From NCBI GenBank assembly GCA_030655315.1, contig JAURVT010000029.1, positions 1 through 64,000 of the forward strand: a stretch of DNA of 64,000 nucleotides. Reading direction: 5' to 3'. Position numbers and translations under genes: made by a program. The DNA is from Nocardioidaceae bacterium. GTDB taxonomy: Bacteria > Actinomycetota > Actinomycetes > Propionibacteriales > Nocardioidaceae. Position 1 is the first letter of the stretch. Each line of letters opens with the position of its first letter. The notes beneath the pieces are model-generated. The model saw nothing but the letters and a program-made list of their open reading frames with translations. It did not search any database and had not been told where the DNA came from. Shown here one piece after another: positions 1,443 to 10,809 of the stretch.

Positions 1443-1516
1443 GTGGCGGTAGCTCAGCTGGTCAGAGCAGGGGACTCATAATCCCTGGGTCGTGGGTTCG
1501 AGCCCCACCCGCCGCA
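1443..1516 (+). tRNA. tRNA with anticodon CAU (elongator Met most likely)
   Basis: The cloverleaf folds fully. The acceptor stem GTGGCGG pairs with CCGCCGC (one U-G wobble), the D stem is GCTC/GAGC, and the anticodon stem GGGGA/TCCCT encloses the loop CTCATAA with anticodon CAT at 1477-1479. The T arm is GTGGG-TTCGAGC-CCCAC and A1516 is the discriminator. CAU could also be the lysidine-modified Ile2 tRNA; the GC-rich stem favours elongator Met but does not prove it. The 3' half from 1474 is the attL of the integrated element and is duplicated at 10766-10809. The tRNA is kept intact by the integration. Confidence 0.93.
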
Positions 1517-1517
1517 C
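1474..1517 (+). repeat. attL: 44-bp direct repeat copy 1
   Basis: This copy starts at the last base of the 5' anticodon stem strand and runs through the T arm and acceptor strand to one base past the discriminator. It is identical to 10766-10809. The two sequences diverge immediately on both sides (gggg before this copy, cgag before the other). It is the core and identity block of a tyrosine-recombinase attachment site in a tRNA gene. Confidence 0.93.
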
Positions 1518-1572
1518 GACCTGCGGAAACGCGAGTACTGAATCCCGTACAGAGGTTGCACAGAGGAGTATC

Positions 1573-2508
1573 TTGCCTCTCGTGACCCTCCGTCAACCCG
1601 AACGCGCAACCTCCGCACCCGACGACCTCCTCGTCCTGCTCGACGACTGGCAGGTCCACCTGCGGGCCAAGGGCCGCTCTCGGGCCACGATCAACTCCTA
1701 CGTCACCGTGGGCCGGGCGTTCATCGACCACGCGACCGAGCGGGGGATGCCCACCGCAGCGTCGTCGATCACCCGCGAGCACCTCGAGCTCTACCTCGCC
1801 GAGCTCCGCGACAGGGTGGCGCCGGCAACCTGCGCGAAGCACTACCGGTCGCTGCAGCAGCTGTTCAAGTGGCTGGCCGACGACGGGGAGATCACCCGCT
1901 CACCGATGGAGCGCATGACCGCGCCGACCGTGCCCGAGCAGCCGGTGCCGGTGCTCGCCGTCGAGCAGCTCGTCACGCTGCTCGACTCGTGCAAGGGCAA
2001 CACGTTCGAGAACCGGCGGGACATGGCGATCATCCGGCTCTTCGTGGACACCGGGATGAGGGCCGGGGAGCTCGCCGGGCTCTCGGTCGACGACCTGGAC
2101 CACGAGCACGCGCTCGCGCACGTGATGGGCAAGGGTGGCCGGGGTCGGGCGTGTCCGTACGGGGCCAAGACCGCCGACGCGCTGCGCCGCTACCTGCGCG
2201 CCAGACGCACCCACCCGCGTGCAGACCTGTCCTCGCTGTGGCTGGGCAAGAAGGGCCCGATGACCGACTCGGGCGTGCGTCAGATGCTCGAGCGCCGTTG
2301 CGAGGACGCCGGGCTGCCCCGGGTCCACCCGCACCAGTTCCGGCACACGTTCGCGCACATGTGGCTCTCCGAGGGTGGTCAGGAGCACGACCTGATGCGT
2401 CTGGCCGGGTGGCGTTCTCGGGAGATGGTCGGGCGCTATGCCGCGTCGGCCGCAGACGGTCGGGCCCGCGAGGCGCACCGCCGGATGGGCATCGGAGACA
2501 GCCTGTGA
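1573..2508 (+). CDS. Tyrosine recombinase/integrase 1
   Basis: A 311-residue site-specific recombinase. Residues about 18-115 form the N-terminal SAM-like DNA-binding domain. The catalytic domain shows Arg163 (GMRAGEL), a Lys in the GKGG turn near 187, His254-x-x-Arg257 (HQFRH), Trp280 in the usual His/Trp place, and nucleophile Tyr289 (GRYA). All catalytic positions are present, so the enzyme looks active. I chose TTG at 1573 because AGGAG ends five bases upstream; GTG at 1582 is the alternative. The open frame continues backwards into the tRNA, which is not coding. Being next to attL and read inward, it is the expected integrase of the element. It overlaps the next gene by 4 bases. Confidence 0.92.
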   Translation: MPLVTLRQPERATSAPDDLLVLLDDWQVHLRAKGRSRATINSYVTVGRAFIDHATERGMPTAASSITREHLELYLAELRDRVAPATCAKHYRSLQQLFKWLADDGEITRSPMERMTAPTVPEQPVPVLAVEQLVTLLDSCKGNTFENRRDMAIIRLFVDTGMRAGELAGLSVDDLDHEHALAHVMGKGGRGRACPYGAKTADALRRYLRARRTHPRADLSSLWLGKKGPMTDSGVRQMLERRCEDAGLPRVHPHQFRHTFAHMWLSEGGQEHDLMRLAGWRSREMVGRYAASAADGRAREAHRRMGIGDSL

Positions 2509-3372: not shown

Positions 3373-3740
3373 CCACGCGACACCACCCCAACCGCGGAGG
3401 CGGCTGGGGCGGCAGCAACGATCAGGTGTCCAGGCCGATCGACGACAGCCTAGCCGCCGGGTGCACCCGATCGGCGCGTACGCGCGTGACCAGCATCCGC
3501 GTGCCGACCGTGCCCGGACTCATGCCGACCGCGGACGTTCGGGCTGTCGAGCTTGCTCGCTCGGCGCCGTCGCCGGGCTCGAACGTGCGCCTGCAGCTGG
3601 GTGCGGCCAAGTGCGTCAACCTCACTGAGCTCGTGTCCTTCGTCCACTGGCTCGAGGCGGCCGGCGTGGTCGTCGTCGAGGGCAATGATGATGCCCTCGT
3701 CGCTGAGGTCGAGAGCGCACTCGGTCGGGGGCCGGCATGA
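3369..3740 (+). CDS. Hypothetical protein of the early operon
   Basis: A 123-residue protein starting at a GTG that overlaps the previous stop (GTGA) and ending in an ATGA overlap with the next gene. Residues 1-45 are polar and Gly/Arg-rich. From about residue 70 a compact domain appears, with the segment LVSFVHWLEAAGVVVVE suggesting a helix followed by a strand. No known motif is seen. Its position between two coupled genes makes it a real member of the operon. Confidence 0.6.
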   Translation: MTTRHHPNRGGGWGGSNDQVSRPIDDSLAAGCTRSARTRVTSIRVPTVPGLMPTADVRAVELARSAPSPGSNVRLQLGAAKCVNLTELVSFVHWLEAAGVVVVEGNDDALVAEVESALGRGPA

Positions 3741-3973
3741 GCGGCTCGCGCGCGTGGCTGCGCGTGGTCATCGTGCCCGAGAAGGGCCTTGCGTTCGTCC
3801 AAGGGCCCGGCGCCCGTGAGCTGATCGAGGAGGCCGGAGGTCGGGCGTTCTGGCTCGGCACAAAGCGTGCGTGGTCCACGAGCCCAGCGGTCGCCGGTGA
3901 CGTCCTGGCGCTCGCGCAGCTCGGCCGGCTCGCTGTCGCCTACGAGGGGCCCCGCGGGGGTGGGTCGGCATGA
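3737..3973 (+). CDS. Small hypothetical protein upstream of the RepA-type ATPase
   Basis: A 78-residue protein starting with ATG overlapping the previous stop and itself overlapping the ATPase start at 3970. The predicted pattern is strand (WLRVVIVP), a helix (ARELIEEAG), then strand and helix, so it could be a small folded alpha/beta protein. No motif is recognised. Translational coupling to the ATPase suggests a partner or regulator of replication, but nothing in the sequence proves this. Confidence 0.6.
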   Translation: MSGSRAWLRVVIVPEKGLAFVQGPGARELIEEAGGRAFWLGTKRAWSTSPAVAGDVLALAQLGRLAVAYEGPRGGGSA

Positions 3974-4977
3974 GCACCGACTACGACCTCGCGACTCAGA
4001 CCTCCACCGACAGGGAGTACTTGCGGCTCCGCGCCGCCGTCGTCGACGCACGGCACCTCGACCAGCTCCCGACACCGGCACCTCTCGTCGACGGTCTGCT
4101 CATGCTCGACTCGATCGCGTGGCTTCACGGCAAGCCCGGCCACGGGAAGTCGTTCCTCGCGCTCGACATCGCGTGCAGCGTCGCCTCCGGCCGGCCCTGG
4201 CGGGGTGAGCACACCACGTCGCCCGGTGTCGTCCTGTACGTCGTGGCTGAGGGCGCCGCCGGCATCCGGCAGCGGGTCGAGGCGTGGGAGACGTTCCACA
4301 GCACGCAGATCGCGGCCGGCCGGCTGAAGTTCCTGCCGGTCGCGGTGCAGCTGCTCGGTCCGTCTCTGGCCGCTCTGGTCGAGGTCGTCTCGGACTGGCA
4401 GCCGGCGCTCGTCGTGATCGATACGCAGGCCAGGGTCACGGTCGGCGCCGATGAGAACAGCAGCCTCGACATGGGCCGCTACGTCGACGCCGTGGAACGG
4501 CTGCGGGCAGCGAGCGGCGCGTGCGTCCTGACCGTCCACCACGAGTCCAGGGCCGGTGACACCCTCCGCGGGTCGACCGCGCTCGAGGGCGCCGCGACGA
4601 CCGTGCTGCGGGTCGTCAAGACCAGCTCGACGGTCCGGCTCGAGGTCACGAAGCAGAAGGAGGCACCGCCGCTGGAGCCCATGCAGGGCCGCCTCGCGGT
4701 CGTGGTGACCGACGGCAGATCGTCCGCGATCTGGTCCCACGACTGCTTGGGACCGCGAGGTGCAGCAGGGCAGAACGCCGACGCGATCCGGGACGCACTT
4801 CGGGACCACTTTGGGACCGACGGCGCGAGCACCAAGGAGCTCCGAGAGCACCTGGGGCTCGCCAAGTCGTCGTTCGACCGCGCGAAGGAATCGCTGCTAT
4901 CTCGGCGCGAAATTGTCAACCGCGGTGCCGACACAGTGCCCCGATGGTTCCTCGCCGGATCGGAGCTGCAGTCGTGA
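3970..4977 (+). CDS. RepA-type AAA_25 ATPase with C-terminal winged helix
   Basis: A 335-residue protein of the RepA/AAA_25 class (RecA-fold hexameric helicase relatives used by plasmids and satellites). Walker A GKPGHGKS is at residues 54-61 and Walker B LVVID at 147-151. A sensor-type His-His pair is at 190-191, and the GSTALEGAAT segment that follows is typical of the family. Residues about 283-328 look like a winged helix (STKELREHLGLAKSSFDRA). GGGACC/GGTCCC repeats lie inside its 3' coding end and directly after its stop, which is the arrangement expected if the protein binds its own iterons. It is the probable replication initiator of the element. Confidence 0.8.
   Translation: MSTDYDLATQTSTDREYLRLRAAVVDARHLDQLPTPAPLVDGLLMLDSIAWLHGKPGHGKSFLALDIACSVASGRPWRGEHTTSPGVVLYVVAEGAAGIRQRVEAWETFHSTQIAAGRLKFLPVAVQLLGPSLAALVEVVSDWQPALVVIDTQARVTVGADENSSLDMGRYVDAVERLRAASGACVLTVHHESRAGDTLRGSTALEGAATTVLRVVKTSSTVRLEVTKQKEAPPLEPMQGRLAVVVTDGRSSAIWSHDCLGPRGAAGQNADAIRDALRDHFGTDGASTKELREHLGLAKSSFDRAKESLLSRREIVNRGADTVPRWFLAGSELQS
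4732..4818. repeat. GGTCCC/GGGACC heptamers inside the RepA-type gene
   Basis: TGGTCCCA at 4732-4739 and TGGGACC at 4748-4754 form an inverted pair. Direct copies follow at 4789-4795 (CGGGACG, one mismatch), 4801-4807 and 4812-4818, spaced 12 and 11 bases, close to one helical turn. They fall in the linker before the winged helix and encode the repeated residues RD-x-L-RD-x-F. The same heptamers recur after the stop codon. Confidence 0.6.
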
Positions 4978-4978
4978 C

Positions 4979-5067
4979 GGTCCCAACGGTCCCAACCGGT
5001 CCCAGCGCCCACGCCACAAGCGGTCCCAGGTCCCACACCCCTATAGGGGGTGGGACCGCGTGGGACC
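4979..5067. repeat. Iteron-like array, candidate replication origin
   Basis: Five direct GGTCCCA copies (4979-4985, 4988-4994, 4998-5004, 5022-5028, 5029-5035) are followed by two inverted TGGGACC copies (5051-5057, 5061-5067). Between them sits the palindrome CCCCTATAGGGG (5038-5049), so 5029-5057 is one large hyphenated palindrome. Short regular spacing, position directly after a RepA-type gene and a central TATA step fit an iteron origin. An autoregulatory operator for the genes downstream is the alternative. Confidence 0.6.
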
Positions 5068-5089
5068 ACGGCCGAACGGGGGGTATCCG

Positions 5090-5461
5090 ATGAGCTTCAC
5101 GATCCTCACCACGTCGACGACCCGGCCGTGCGCGGACTGCGGCGCCGAGGTCCCACCGAGGTTCTCGCGGGTCGTCCAGGTCGGTGGCGGGTTCCGGCCC
5201 TGGTGCCCGCCCTGCCTCGCCGAGCGGGATCTCACCCGCTGGGACGCGATCCTCCAGCCCGTCGACGACCTCGTGCGCCTGCTCGGCGAGGAGCCGTACG
5301 AGCTCGCCGTCGTGGTACGTGACCTGGTCCACAGCAACCTCAGCCCACTGCACGTGCGCGCTGAGGCGGCCCGGCTGCTGAAGCGGCACCGCGGCGATGA
5401 GCGGGTGGCTGCGGCCCTCGCCCGGCTCGAGGCCGCGGTGCTCGCGAGGAGGCGGCGATGA
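5090..5461 (+). CDS. Small zinc-ribbon-like protein
   Basis: A 123-residue protein whose first 45 residues contain two Cys-x-x-Cys pairs (CADC and CPPC) about 22 residues apart, which can form a zinc ribbon. The remainder is helical and ends in Arg-rich ALARRRR. The start follows the iteron array, and a G-run just upstream serves as ribosome binding site. It overlaps the next gene by 4 bases. Nucleic-acid binding is plausible from the fold, but the family is not recognised. Confidence 0.65.
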   Translation: MSFTILTTSTTRPCADCGAEVPPRFSRVVQVGGGFRPWCPPCLAERDLTRWDAILQPVDDLVRLLGEEPYELAVVVRDLVHSNLSPLHVRAEAARLLKRHRGDERVAAALARLEAAVLARRRR

Positions 5462-5694
5462 CCGCCCGCCTGGTGCCGCTCGTGGTCGTCCGCCCCACGG
5501 CCGAGCGCCGGTCACGTCTGGCCGCGGCGGCGCCGGCGTGCTCCTGTCCGGTGCGCCGTCGCTGGCTCGACGGGTACGGGCGGCCCGCGCTGCTAGCGTC
5601 GGTCGCGCACCTGCCGGCGTGCTGGCCGCGCGCGCTCGAGGAGCCCCGCATGGTCATCGTGCGCGGCCTGCACAGCTCGGCGGACCTGTCGTGA
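5458..5694 (+). CDS. Small hypothetical protein
   Basis: A 78-residue Arg/Ala-rich protein with cysteines in ACSCP and PACWP, coupled by ATGA/GTGA overlaps to the genes on both sides. No domain is recognised. The tight overlaps are the main reason to accept it; the composition alone would not be convincing. Confidence 0.5.
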   Translation: MTARLVPLVVVRPTAERRSRLAAAAPACSCPVRRRWLDGYGRPALLASVAHLPACWPRALEEPRMVIVRGLHSSADLS

Positions 5695-6104
5695 CGCGCG
5701 ACCCGGTGACGGTCGCTCTCGAGGGCACCGACCACGACTCACGCCAGCGGCTCGCGAGGGTCCTCACGGTCGGGTCTCGTCAGGTGTCGACGAGCGGCGG
5801 CGCGGTCGACGTCGAGCTCGTCCGGCGGGTCGTCGCCGCACTGCTCGGGCCGTCGCCCGCCTTTCGCACGCGAAAGCAGATTGGACGGTCCGAGCCGGCA
5901 TGGCTCAGCGTTCGTCAGGTGACGGAGGAGCCGGGTGCCCCCTCATCGCAGACCGTGCGGAGCTGGGCTCGCTCAGCGCTCGCGGGAGGCGGTGAGGGGA
6001 CCCGGGTGCGACGCACAGCCGGCGGGGCATGGGAGCTCCGCGAGGACCACGTACGGGCCCGGATCGCCGGCCTCGAGCAGCAACGACAGGAGCAAACCGC
6101 ATGA
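5691..6104 (+). CDS. HTH protein, possible excisionase or small packaging protein
   Basis: A 137-residue protein beginning at a GTG overlapping the previous stop. Residues about 70-125 follow the pattern of MerR/excisionase-type helix-turn-helix proteins: WLSVRQVTEE, then SSQTVRSWAR, then a short wing RVRRTAGGAWEL. A recombination directionality factor or transcription regulator would fit this element. Because the capsid-like gene follows at once (overlap of 4), a small-terminase-like DNA-binding role is also possible. The HTH call is moderate; the role is inference. Confidence 0.55.
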   Translation: MTRDPVTVALEGTDHDSRQRLARVLTVGSRQVSTSGGAVDVELVRRVVAALLGPSPAFRTRKQIGRSEPAWLSVRQVTEEPGAPSSQTVRSWARSALAGGGEGTRVRRTAGGAWELREDHVRARIAGLEQQRQEQTA

Positions 6105-7123
6105 CCCAGACCCGCTTCCCCCTCGCTCAGCCGGTCAAGCACCCCGTGCCGGCGCTGGTGTCGCACCTGCGCGACCTTGCCAGCTCGTTCGGTCAGCCCG
6201 GGATCAGCTCGGCTGAGCGGGGCGCAAGGGCCCGTGAGGTCGCCGACGTGGCCCGCGACCTGCTCGACGCCGAGCGCGCCGTCGCAGGTGTCCTCCCGGC
6301 CCGAGCGCTGCCCGCCTTGCTCAACAGAGGGCTCGAGGACGCCGGGGTGCGCGACGCCCGCCGCGAGCTCGACGAGGTCCGAGCCGCGCTCGACTTCACC
6401 GGCCTCATGGGCACGGCCGTCGCCGCGGTGCCGGACGACCCGTTCGACGGCACGCCGCTGGTCGACCTCGCCACCCGAGTGACCGGCCATGCTGCGGGCC
6501 TCGTCGTGCCTGGCCTCGTCGACGTCGACGCCACGGGTGTCCTCAACCCGACCCTGCCGATCCCCGACGGCGAGACGTGGGTCGTGGATGACGTCGCGGC
6601 CGACAGCGACGCATGGCAGATCGCAGCCGCGCTCGTCTCGGTCTCACGCGAGGTCATCGACCACACCGATGACCGCGGCGCTGCGCTGCTCGACAGCGTC
6701 CTCCTGGCCCTCGTCGATCGCGCCGCTGAGGAGTACCTCGCCGGGCAGCTCGTCGAAGCCGCCACCGTCGCCGCAGCCGGCGCCAACCTGTCGACCGCGC
6801 TCGACACGGCCGAGGGCCTCGCCGGCGCCGCGCTCAACGGGGCCGCGGACCTCCTTGTCACGCACCCGGCCGACTGGCCCAGCGTCCGCCGAGCCGTCGC
6901 CGCGACCTGGCAGACCGACCCCCACCCCACCGCGGCCGTCTCCTGCGGGATGCCCCGCGGCACCGTCATTGTCACCGGACGCCGCGCACTCACCTTCCAG
7001 ACGACCGAGCCGCTCGCGATCTCCGAGGACAAGCCCCGCATGTGGAGCCGCGACCTGGCCTTCATGCGCGACGTGCTCGGCGTGGTCCGAGTCCCCGGCG
7101 CCGTGCACGCCGTCACCCTCTGA
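6101..7123 (+). CDS. HK97-fold major capsid-like protein
   Basis: A 340-residue protein with the domain layout of phage HK97-type capsids. Residues 1-100 are helical and charged, like a scaffold (delta) domain. Around 170-215 the segment SVSREVIDHTDD followed by a long helix matches the E-loop and spine-helix region. Residues 245-262 (NGAADLLVTHPADWP) match the A-domain helix start. The end has the typical order: GMPRGTVIVTGRRAL, an acidic stretch, then VVRVPGAVHAVTL. AGGAG lies eight bases before the ATG. The homology is by pattern, not alignment. No protease, portal or terminase accompanies it, which is unusual for a prophage and typical of satellites. Confidence 0.7.
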   Translation: MTQTRFPLAQPVKHPVPALVSHLRDLASSFGQPGISSAERGARAREVADVARDLLDAERAVAGVLPARALPALLNRGLEDAGVRDARRELDEVRAALDFTGLMGTAVAAVPDDPFDGTPLVDLATRVTGHAAGLVVPGLVDVDATGVLNPTLPIPDGETWVVDDVAADSDAWQIAAALVSVSREVIDHTDDRGAALLDSVLLALVDRAAEEYLAGQLVEAATVAAAGANLSTALDTAEGLAGAALNGAADLLVTHPADWPSVRRAVAATWQTDPHPTAAVSCGMPRGTVIVTGRRALTFQTTEPLAISEDKPRMWSRDLAFMRDVLGVVRVPGAVHAVTL

Positions 7124-9531: not shown

Positions 9532-9813
9532 CTAGGCGACCGTCTGCGGCCCTGTCAGACGTTCGGCCAGGTCGACGGACGCCTCGAGCAGCCGGGCCAG
9601 CTCACGGGCCTCCTGCGGCTGCAGTTCCTCCACGGCGCTCCCGGTGACGATCCCCTCGAGCGCGACCGTCGTCATGCCGGTGAGCTCGTCGAGGCCGAGG
9701 TGCGTCGTGACGGGCTCCGGTAGGCCGAGGTCGGCGCTGAGGAGCGGCGCGCTGTGCAGGTCGGCGTCGAGCACGTCGTCGTGAGCCACGGCGCACCACG
9801 ACGGGCAGCTCAC
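9532..9813 (-). CDS. DUF6907-like small protein
   Basis: A 93-residue protein opening with CPSWCAVAH, the Cys-x-x-x-Cys-plus-His signature I associate with DUF6907, a family of short proteins common in actinobacterial mobile DNA. The GTG start overlaps the stop of recombinase 2 by 4 bases, so the two are translationally coupled. The C-terminal half is helical (QEARELARLLEASVDLAERL). The role is unknown; the Cys/His head could bind zinc. Confidence 0.65.
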   Translation of the reverse strand: MSCPSWCAVAHDDVLDADLHSAPLLSADLGLPEPVTTHLGLDELTGMTTVALEGIVTGSAVEELQPQEARELARLLEASVDLAERLTGPQTVA

Positions 9814-10667
9814 AGCCCCACCGCCGCAACCGCGGCACGCTTCGCGTCCTGCGGGACCGCCGTGTACCTCGCGGTCGTCTCAGGCTTGGAGTGCCCCATG
9901 AGCTCCTGCACCGCCCGCAGGTCCCGGGTCCCGGCGTACGCGGCCGTCGCGAGCCGGTGCCGCAACGTGTGCGCCGTCCAGTCCTCCCCGAGCGCCCGCG
10001 AGAGCTTGCGCGTGACGTCACCGGCCGACAGGTGCCCCCCGCGCTGGCCGGGGAACAGCCACCCGTCCGCGGTCACCCACTCGGCGTAGCGCCACCCCGT
10101 CCCGACCCTGCCGGCACGGCGCCGGGCGAGCTCGGCCTCGAGCGCCTCACCGAGCACCGGGTGCAGCGGCACCGTGCGCACCTTCCCGCCCTTCCCCGAG
10201 CGCACGACGAGCCGGTCAGGCTCCACGTCCCGGGTGTGCACCGCAGCGACCTCCATCGCCCTCAGACCCGCGAGCGCGGCCAGCATGAGCATCAGGGCGG
10301 TGCGGTCGTCCGCGGCCGTCAGAGCGTCCCTCAGGGCCCCGTCAGGGGCGGGCCGTGCGTACCCGTCAGGCACCCTCACCGCGTCGAGCGCGTCAGCCGG
10401 CGACGATGACAGCCGGCCCGTGCGGACCGCCCACCGGTAGAAGTGCCGCACCGACGTGCGAGCCGACTTCCGAGACTGCGGCGCCCACCCGTCGCGATCC
10501 ACGAACGCCGCGAGGTCGTCGCTCGTCACCGTCCACGGGTCAGGGCAGACCCGGGCGAGGTGGTGCAGGTAGTGCAGGTACAGCCGCAGCGTCGTCGGTG
10601 AGAGGTTCGCTGCGCGCTGCGCTGCTTCCCACCGTCTGATTGGGTCGTGCCAAGTGGTCTCGATCAT
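9810..10667 (-). CDS. Tyrosine recombinase/integrase 2
   Basis: A 285-residue site-specific recombinase. The catalytic set is complete: Arg136 (GLRAMEV), Lys159 (SGKGGKVR), His233-x-x-Arg236 (HTLRH), His259 (MGHS) and Tyr268 (ARYTA). Residues 10-95 form the core-binding domain. I start it at 10667 because AGGAG stands four bases upstream; the longer open frame has no such site. It sits 98 bases inside attR and reads inward, a mirror image of recombinase 1. The two recombinases differ in length and sequence and are not duplicates. It may be a second integrase, a resolvase-like partner, or the relic of another element. Confidence 0.9.
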   Translation of the reverse strand: MIETTWHDPIRRWEAAQRAANLSPTTLRLYLHYLHHLARVCPDPWTVTSDDLAAFVDRDGWAPQSRKSARTSVRHFYRWAVRTGRLSSSPADALDAVRVPDGYARPAPDGALRDALTAADDRTALMLMLAALAGLRAMEVAAVHTRDVEPDRLVVRSGKGGKVRTVPLHPVLGEALEAELARRRAGRVGTGWRYAEWVTADGWLFPGQRGGHLSAGDVTRKLSRALGEDWTAHTLRHRLATAAYAGTRDLRAVQELMGHSKPETTARYTAVPQDAKRAAVAAVGL

Positions 10668-10765
10668 GGTGCTCCTACAGGCGGGGACTGGACGTTTGAA
10701 GGTTCGTCGCAACCGCTGTAAACGCTGACGTCTCGGCATCCCGCACAAGGGTCAATAGGTCGAGC

Positions 10766-10809
10766 ACTCATAATCCCTGGGTCGTGGGTTCGAGCCCCAC
10801 CCGCCGCAC
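10766..10809 (+). repeat. attR: 44-bp direct repeat copy 2
   Basis: Exact copy of 1474-1517, the tRNA 3' half without its 5' half, so it cannot make a tRNA. Here the sequence after the discriminator reads CC followed by host DNA, which is the likely original 3' flank of the tRNA before integration. Confidence 0.93.

Follow-up and report, generated by a model that had tools for sequence, protein, structure and literature searches.

A heptamer array around a short hairpin directly behind a RepA-type helicase gene, a probable replication origin of an integrated actinobacterial element

What is the function of a dense group of short repeats lying immediately behind a RepA-type gene? In a 64,000-nucleotide stretch of Nocardioidaceae DNA (the whole stretch that was analysed, here called the window) an earlier note had described seven heptamers, five direct and two inverted, around a 12-bp palindrome with TATA symmetry straight after such a gene, and had proposed a replication origin or an initiator operator. 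This layout was reproduced. The heptamer GGTCCCA starts at 4979, 4988, 4998, 5022 and 5029 on the plus strand and its inverse, TGGGACC, at 5051 and 5061; all seven are exact, and the start-to-start spacings are 9, 10, 24, 7, 22 and 10, among them the 9, 10 and 7 originally listed. The first heptamer begins 2 bases past the repA stop codon, which ends at 4977, and the innermost iterons are inverted around a C4-TATA-G4 centre. An origin or initiator operator beside RepA is also the reading that comparison with relatives supports best, and the array is most likely the origin of an integrated mobile element, at which RepA would bind the iterons via a winged helix and load itself. The role of heptamer copies inside the gene, a conserved CTWTAG-type hairpin and the integrated element around the array are subjects that go beyond the earlier note. 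The features of the array and its surroundings are as follows.

4979 to 5067, plus strand: iteron array, proposed origin core, placed by exact-match positions; its pair clusters are unique in the genome.
5038 to 5049, no strand: central palindrome CCCCTATAGGGG with CTWTAG-type centre, perfect, of a class enriched in the arrays of relatives.
5022 to 5067, plus strand: nested hairpin in the single-strand DNA fold, two direct iterons pairing with two inverted ones around the palindrome.
4733 to 4754, no strand: gene-internal convergent heptamer pair (4733 plus, 4748 minus).
4812 to 4818, minus strand: third gene-internal heptamer, an exact match inside repA.
5149 to 5155, plus strand: lone extra heptamer in the next gene, an exact match that may be a chance occurrence.

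The idea that the heptamer is confined to this element held for clusters but not for single copies. The pair GGTCCCA-N0-6-GGTCCCA has 4 matches in the 4.18-Mb genome, all of them in this array, against 0 for the reversed control, whereas single copies are spread over the genome without enrichment (521, compared with 656 for the reversed control). The whole window contains 19 heptamers where 12.6 +/- 3.4 are expected. The region near the stop codon has 8 copies of one 7-mer per 300 bp, as compared with 2-3 in five dinucleotide shuffles. When positions 5020-5070 are folded as single-stranded DNA they form one nested hairpin of -20.3 kcal/mol (z -5.3), a stability equalled by 0 of 200 shuffles. 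The highest A+T content in 40 bp near the array is 0.45, outside the array centre, and no A/T-rich melting region other than the TATA was seen near the array.

The gene in front of the array encodes a protein of 335 aa, in which two parts can be distinguished.

3970 to 4977, plus strand: repA, RecA-fold (AAA_25) helicase of the RSF1010-RepA type with a C-terminal winged helix, from PF13481, the model and a fold match.
4762 to 4953 (codons of residues 265-328), plus strand: predicted winged helix, proposed iteron-binding domain, from model secondary structure and a conserved block in alignment A1.

RepA matches PF13481 (AAA_25) with an E-value of 7.6e-36, and the best fold match of its AlphaFold model (13 sequences, mean pLDDT 84) is RSF1010 RepA (1g8y; VIA Z 24.3, rmsd 2.3, 216 aligned). 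The VIA matches span mostly model residues 1-264 and therefore speak for the motor, not for the winged helix, which is predicted to comprise three helices and two strands. RepA is accordingly read as a RecA-fold helicase of the RSF1010-RepA type, presumably hexameric, that carries the predicted winged helix at its C-terminus, and the array begins where the coding part for this domain ends.

The array sits in a 9.3-kb insertion flanked by 44-bp tRNA-Met repeats, with two different tyrosine recombinases just inside the two repeats.

1474 to 1517, plus strand: left 44-bp direct repeat, the 3' part of tRNA-Met (1443-1517), proposed attachment site, from the repeat and tRNA finding.
10766 to 10809, plus strand: right copy of the 44-bp repeat, identical to the left copy.
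1492 to 2508, plus strand: tyrosine recombinase 1 (PF00589, E 2.6e-28).
9810 to 10748, minus strand: tyrosine recombinase 2 (PF00589, E 7.4e-24).

The remaining content of the element is small ORFs, mostly without a known family. No primase was recognised among the element ORFs scanned against Pfam, PHROGs and NCBIfam, several of which gave no match of any kind, and a PADLOC scan returned only weak coiled-coil matches. For a 340-aa protein of no known family (6101-7123), a search of the other 390 genomes of the order found relatives in 3; a capsid-like identity was considered for it and dropped, its fold model having a mean pLDDT of only 36. Recombinase 1 and the small ORF at 2986 also accompany RepA in L355, L327 and L308, and in L470-L472 relatives of recombinase 2, with weak E-values, are found close to those of the 6101 protein. 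As judged from its genes the element may be composite in origin. An empty insertion site was not found among the relatives' stretches compared, which keep the left flank while the right flank has no match; some relatives that keep the left flank have a tRNA-Met nearby. In L451 (275-308, 1501-1573), from a relative genome, a tRNA-Met lies at the same neighbour gene and its 3' end is partly repeated 1.2 kb off, as if another insertion had used the site.

Since the element is integrated, has no recognised primase and consists mostly of ORFs of no known family, it might have decayed, in which case the array would be the former origin of an element that no longer replicates. This is unlikely: the reading frames of repA and of the two recombinases remain open, the left and right 44-bp repeats match exactly and all seven heptamers are exact. 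It would in any case be compatible with an origin function for the array, as it concerns present activity only.

Relatives of RepA are uncommon. At E <= 1e-20 they were found in 6 of 294 family, 5 of 391 order and 14 of 394 class genomes sampled, counts in which the genome itself is included and the three sets overlap. The GGTCCCA cluster is absent from all 20 relative loci L006-L025, each of which has 0-2 scattered copies. Another repeated word (at least four copies per 250 bp, judged by eye) stands beside repA in 16 of the 20, for example CGTCTCA, ACTGCCA, CGTCCCA, GTTCCCA or CTGTCCC; none was seen in L010, L022, L023 and L024. The expectation that the array would be conserved along with RepA was thus upheld as regards its place and not as regards its word, which differs per lineage, so that the literal heptamer is not conserved. 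The words of the closest relatives have the form NGTC[CT]CA(C), which includes GGTCCCA; mycobacteria have TGTCCAC, Geodermatophilus TGTCCGC and several Proteobacteria GACAATC, while the repeat unit is conserved at ~7-8 bp. In L014, L016 and L019, actinobacterial loci with larger RepA proteins, CTCCCCC arrays lie partly inside the coding tail.

A scan of viral contigs with the window RepA alone gave no relative, but alignment A1 did find relatives there (458, 80 kept), as it did in genome contigs (94, 80 kept). In 153 of the resulting 160 loci the repA end is complete and followed by at least 200 bp; dereplication at 70% identity left 99. An array, defined as one 7-mer occurring at least five times in 300 bp within a 600-bp region around the repA stop, is present in 60 of the 99, whereas other regions of the same loci reach this in 46 of 1876 cases and shuffled sequences in 2 of 1980. 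With the stricter threshold of at least six copies the numbers are 43/99, 19/1876 and 0/1980. The other 39 dereplicated loci are below five copies, the mycobacteriophage contig L382 among them. L382 and L383 are large mycobacteriophage contigs whose RepA relative is 37-38% identical and has no array beside the gene; part of the RepA family may therefore use another origin.

Further comparisons were made with 64 arrays, those of the window and 63 dereplicated loci. In 19 of the 64 the repeated word has a copy 120-300 bp ahead of the stop, compared with 3 and 4 for two control intervals farther upstream. The gene-internal copies of the window are at -245, -230 and -166 relative to the stop, and L301, L311, L315 and L345 each have a similar layout, with a convergent pair ~14 bp apart and a further copy. 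Across 63 of the 64 array loci, the more alike the winged helices are, the more alike the words tend to be (rho 0.184, a value reached in 0 of 1000 permutations). In partial correlations with the word, the winged helix given the ATPase has 0.164 and the ATPase given the winged helix 0.099. This coupling is small and weak, and is in the expected direction.

The centre of the palindrome recurs even where the word has changed. The motif CCT[AT]{0,4}AGG is found in 31 of the 64 arrays as compared with 27 of 1814 equal-length far segments, while four control motifs are found in 3, 8, 5 and 7 of the 64, near their far rates or somewhat higher. A strict hairpin, defined as a CT[AT]{1,4}AG centre flanked by four Watson-Crick pairs and located between -10 and +140 of the stop, occurs in 25 of 100 loci against 0.26 predicted from the far density; five other centres under the same test gave 1, 1, 0, 5 and 0. 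In many actinobacterial loci the hairpin centre is 57-63 bp past the stop. The centre is also asymmetric on the repA strand, with CTTTAG in 11 cases and CTAAAG in 3, CTTAG in 3 and CTAAG in 0, and CTATAAG in 4 and its complement in 0; this suggests that one strand is read, albeit from small numbers and related loci.

In many loci the stems hold the innermost inverted iterons and change along with them. A search for the longest palindrome discriminated weakly (arm of at least 6 in 28/64 arrays and in 271/1124 far segments). When hairpin arms were swapped between 34 loci picked by the centre and three inner pairs, pairing at distances 4-10 fell from 0.471 to 0.313 (shuffle maximum 0.387, n=500). 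This drop arises partly because the innermost iterons are inverted, and hence does not independently prove that the strand folds.

The same arrangement is seen in extrachromosomal molecules. From 29 matching plasmid records 6 were examined, small circular ones being picked. All five circular plasmids with a non-IncQ AAA_25 RepA have an array at the repA stop, with 6, 12, 8, 6 and 5 copies compared with no more than 3-4 in other parts of each locus; an array beside repA is absent in the one IncQ2 plasmid examined. The Methylobacterium currus plasmid has the strict hairpin AACCCTATAGGGTT between inverted iterons, and similar hairpins were seen by eye in two other plasmids. Several of the plasmids carry phage genes and are therefore likely phage-plasmids. 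In one of four circular plasmids the GC-skew minimum is 961 bp away from the array; in the other three the distance is 2.5-13.8 kb.

Alternatively, the heptamers could be an operator for repA or for the gene starting at 5090, bound by RepA or another regulator, with replication starting elsewhere. The array does lie between two genes, inverted repeats suit dimeric regulators, and iteron initiators often autoregulate. The position of the array nevertheless makes this improbable, as it is found downstream of repA and not before it, in relatives too; furthermore, 5-12 copies are many for an operator and the central hairpin recurs. No sigma-70-like promoter was found at 3500-5600 by a scan of a kind that misses actinobacterial promoters.

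The heptamer itself was rejected as a conserved signature, since L006-L025 are without clusters and triple direct heptamers are not enriched in viral contigs (62 loci, compared with 61 for the reversed word). Among these loci L187, L193 and L203, viewed in context, consist of repeats with a 9-bp period within ORFs. Of the viral searches, only those for inverted copies were informative: at least two opposite copies within 300 bp occur in 6 of the 62 loci and in 1 of the 61. Convergent arrays, in which two direct heptamers are followed 60-90 bases on by an inverted one, were found at 15 loci in viral contigs against 7 for a control word. Ten of the 15 lie at the 3' end of a helicase gene (VapE 7, DUF927 2, DUF5906 1), as compared with one of the 7 control loci (VapE). 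The remaining five (L187, L207, L277, L279 and L280) have no helicase gene end close by, and four of these arrays are inside an ORF. L191, a further locus from the triple-heptamer search, is another DUF927 case. Phage contigs with convergent GGTCCCA arrays at helicase gene 3' ends are accordingly L054, L085, L122, L191, L211, L212, L275, L276, L278, L281 and L282, with VapE, DUF927 and DUF5906 across the set, and these arrays are probably origins built alike but served by other motors. The helicase genes beside 10 of the 15 arrays indicate that arrays of this type go with replicative helicases whose motor families are unrelated, with words being reused. Two control words also hit arrays beside helicase genes (L283, VapE; L215, DUF5906/D5), which fits a free choice of words and makes the controls conservative. 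In class genomes most triple-heptamer matches look like regular tandem repeats. Repeats of the GGTCCCATAACTGGCAA type occur at several places of some genomes (L165, L171, L172), and are possibly transposon ends unrelated to RepA.

Short repeated sites in both orientations are also found at centromere-like sites, so that the array might instead serve partition or packaging (as a centromere-like or satellite pac site); this is very improbable, as the scanned ORFs of the window include no recognisable ParA/ParB-like gene and the array follows helicase genes across unrelated elements. That the palindrome is a mere transcription terminator of repA and the repeats incidental would suit a G+C-rich stem just past a stop codon, but is just as hard to credit given that there is no T tract, that no terminator-like site was found, and that terminators have neither inverted iterons in their stem nor a conserved CTWTAG-type centre in the loop region.

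Classical iteron plasmids have a Rep_3-type initiator and iterons of ~17-22 bp, whereas RepA here has no Rep_3-type Pfam match and the unit is ~7-8 bp. The closest precedent is provided by the SaPI Rep and SCCmec Cch2 helicases, which bind repeats directly downstream of their own genes via a C-terminal domain (PMC7581432), and by PICI origins, in which two iteron sets surround an A/T-rich region (PMC6092414). In common with these, the iterons here directly follow the helicase gene, as they do in relatives; the candidate counterpart of the C-terminal binding domain would be the predicted winged helix. The motor, however, is a RecA-fold AAA_25 protein where theirs is DUF927 or D5-type, and the centre is C4-TATA-G4 with a CTWTAG-type hairpin where theirs is A/T-rich. 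As two defining features differ, the locus was not assigned to the SaPI/PICI group; the best reading is a one-gene design like that of these replicons, in which however the motor has a RecA fold and the hairpin is conserved.

In RSF1010, RepC acts on the iterons, RepA is the helicase that exposes short stem-loops, and RepB' primes at these (PMC4234260). The window resembles this system in the modelled helicase fold and in combining iterons with a short stem-loop. Iteron binding there belongs to a separate RepC, of which no match was found among the ORFs scanned, whereas here the candidate binding domain is fused to the helicase; similarly, no counterpart of the RepB' primase was recognised among those ORFs. 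Plasmid pRN1 likewise has a stem-loop downstream of its replication gene, which it needs for replication, and the product of that gene has a C-terminal winged helix (PMC4234260), but that stem-loop is of 100 nt, much longer than the hairpin at 5022-5067, and is without iterons, and the protein is a primase-SF3 helicase rather than a 335-aa protein with AAA_25 only. The PrimQH primase-helicases of mobile elements include proteins in which a primase is joined to a motor of the RepA, VirE or DUF927 type and to a C-terminal winged helix, which Kazlauskas et al. suggested recognises the origin (PMC5862659); the window RepA lacks the primase domain, and in the main text of that paper 'iteron' occurs 0 times, the passages on these proteins describing neither arrays nor the hairpin. 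For extrachromosomal mycobacterial prophages with another RepA type, the authors saw no repeats (PMC7157519). Titles and abstract openings, in literature that leaves subscription journals mostly outside, contain no report of the GGTCCCA heptamer or of iterons beside an AAA_25 RepA, and CCCTATAGGG was likewise absent from the papers screened for it.

The case for an origin is made by the position and uniqueness of the array, the arrays of relatives, the hairpin, the plasmids, the fold, the heptamer search, the coupling of word and winged helix and the SaPI/Cch2 precedent; the 39 of 99 loci below five copies, the missing A/T-rich region, the weakness of that coupling and the lack of a recognised primase weigh against it. 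From this we infer a mechanism of binding, melting, loading and priming, leading to replication of an excised circle. The winged helix of RepA would bind the GGTCCCA iterons downstream of and inside its own gene. With the innermost iterons inverted around C4-TATA-G4, RepA would assemble to the left and right of the hairpin, open the A/T centre and load onto the exposed strands; the hairpin strand possibly guides loading or priming.

More broadly, it can be proposed tentatively, at somewhat less than even likelihood, that AAA_25/RepA helicases to which a winged helix is fused mark a class of origins that is widespread, present across phyla in phages, phage-plasmids and integrated elements, with its own word per lineage, a common strand-specific hairpin signal and exchangeable word and motor modules. 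The kept centre would be CTTTAG, CTATAG or CTTAG, preferentially on the repA strand, for loading or priming. As the same words occur with unrelated motors (VapE, DUF927, DUF5906), the word-reading part and the motor would each be replaceable.

For mobile elements whose mode of replication is not known, a simple guide to the origin would be a 7-mer repeated about a CTWTAG-type hairpin immediately behind a helicase gene, and genes annotated as 'AAA family ATPase' or hypothetical would become candidate self-loading initiators with named target sites. How the DNA-binding domain of an initiator changes its word while the origin geometry stays is then a testable question, a change of word being what one would predict where relatives have to escape incompatibility. 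For actinobacteria, a compact replicon with a single gene would also be a useful vector part. Two RepA loci of one genome, L008 and L011 of G007, have the common word ACTGCCA, and the two may therefore compete for one initiator.
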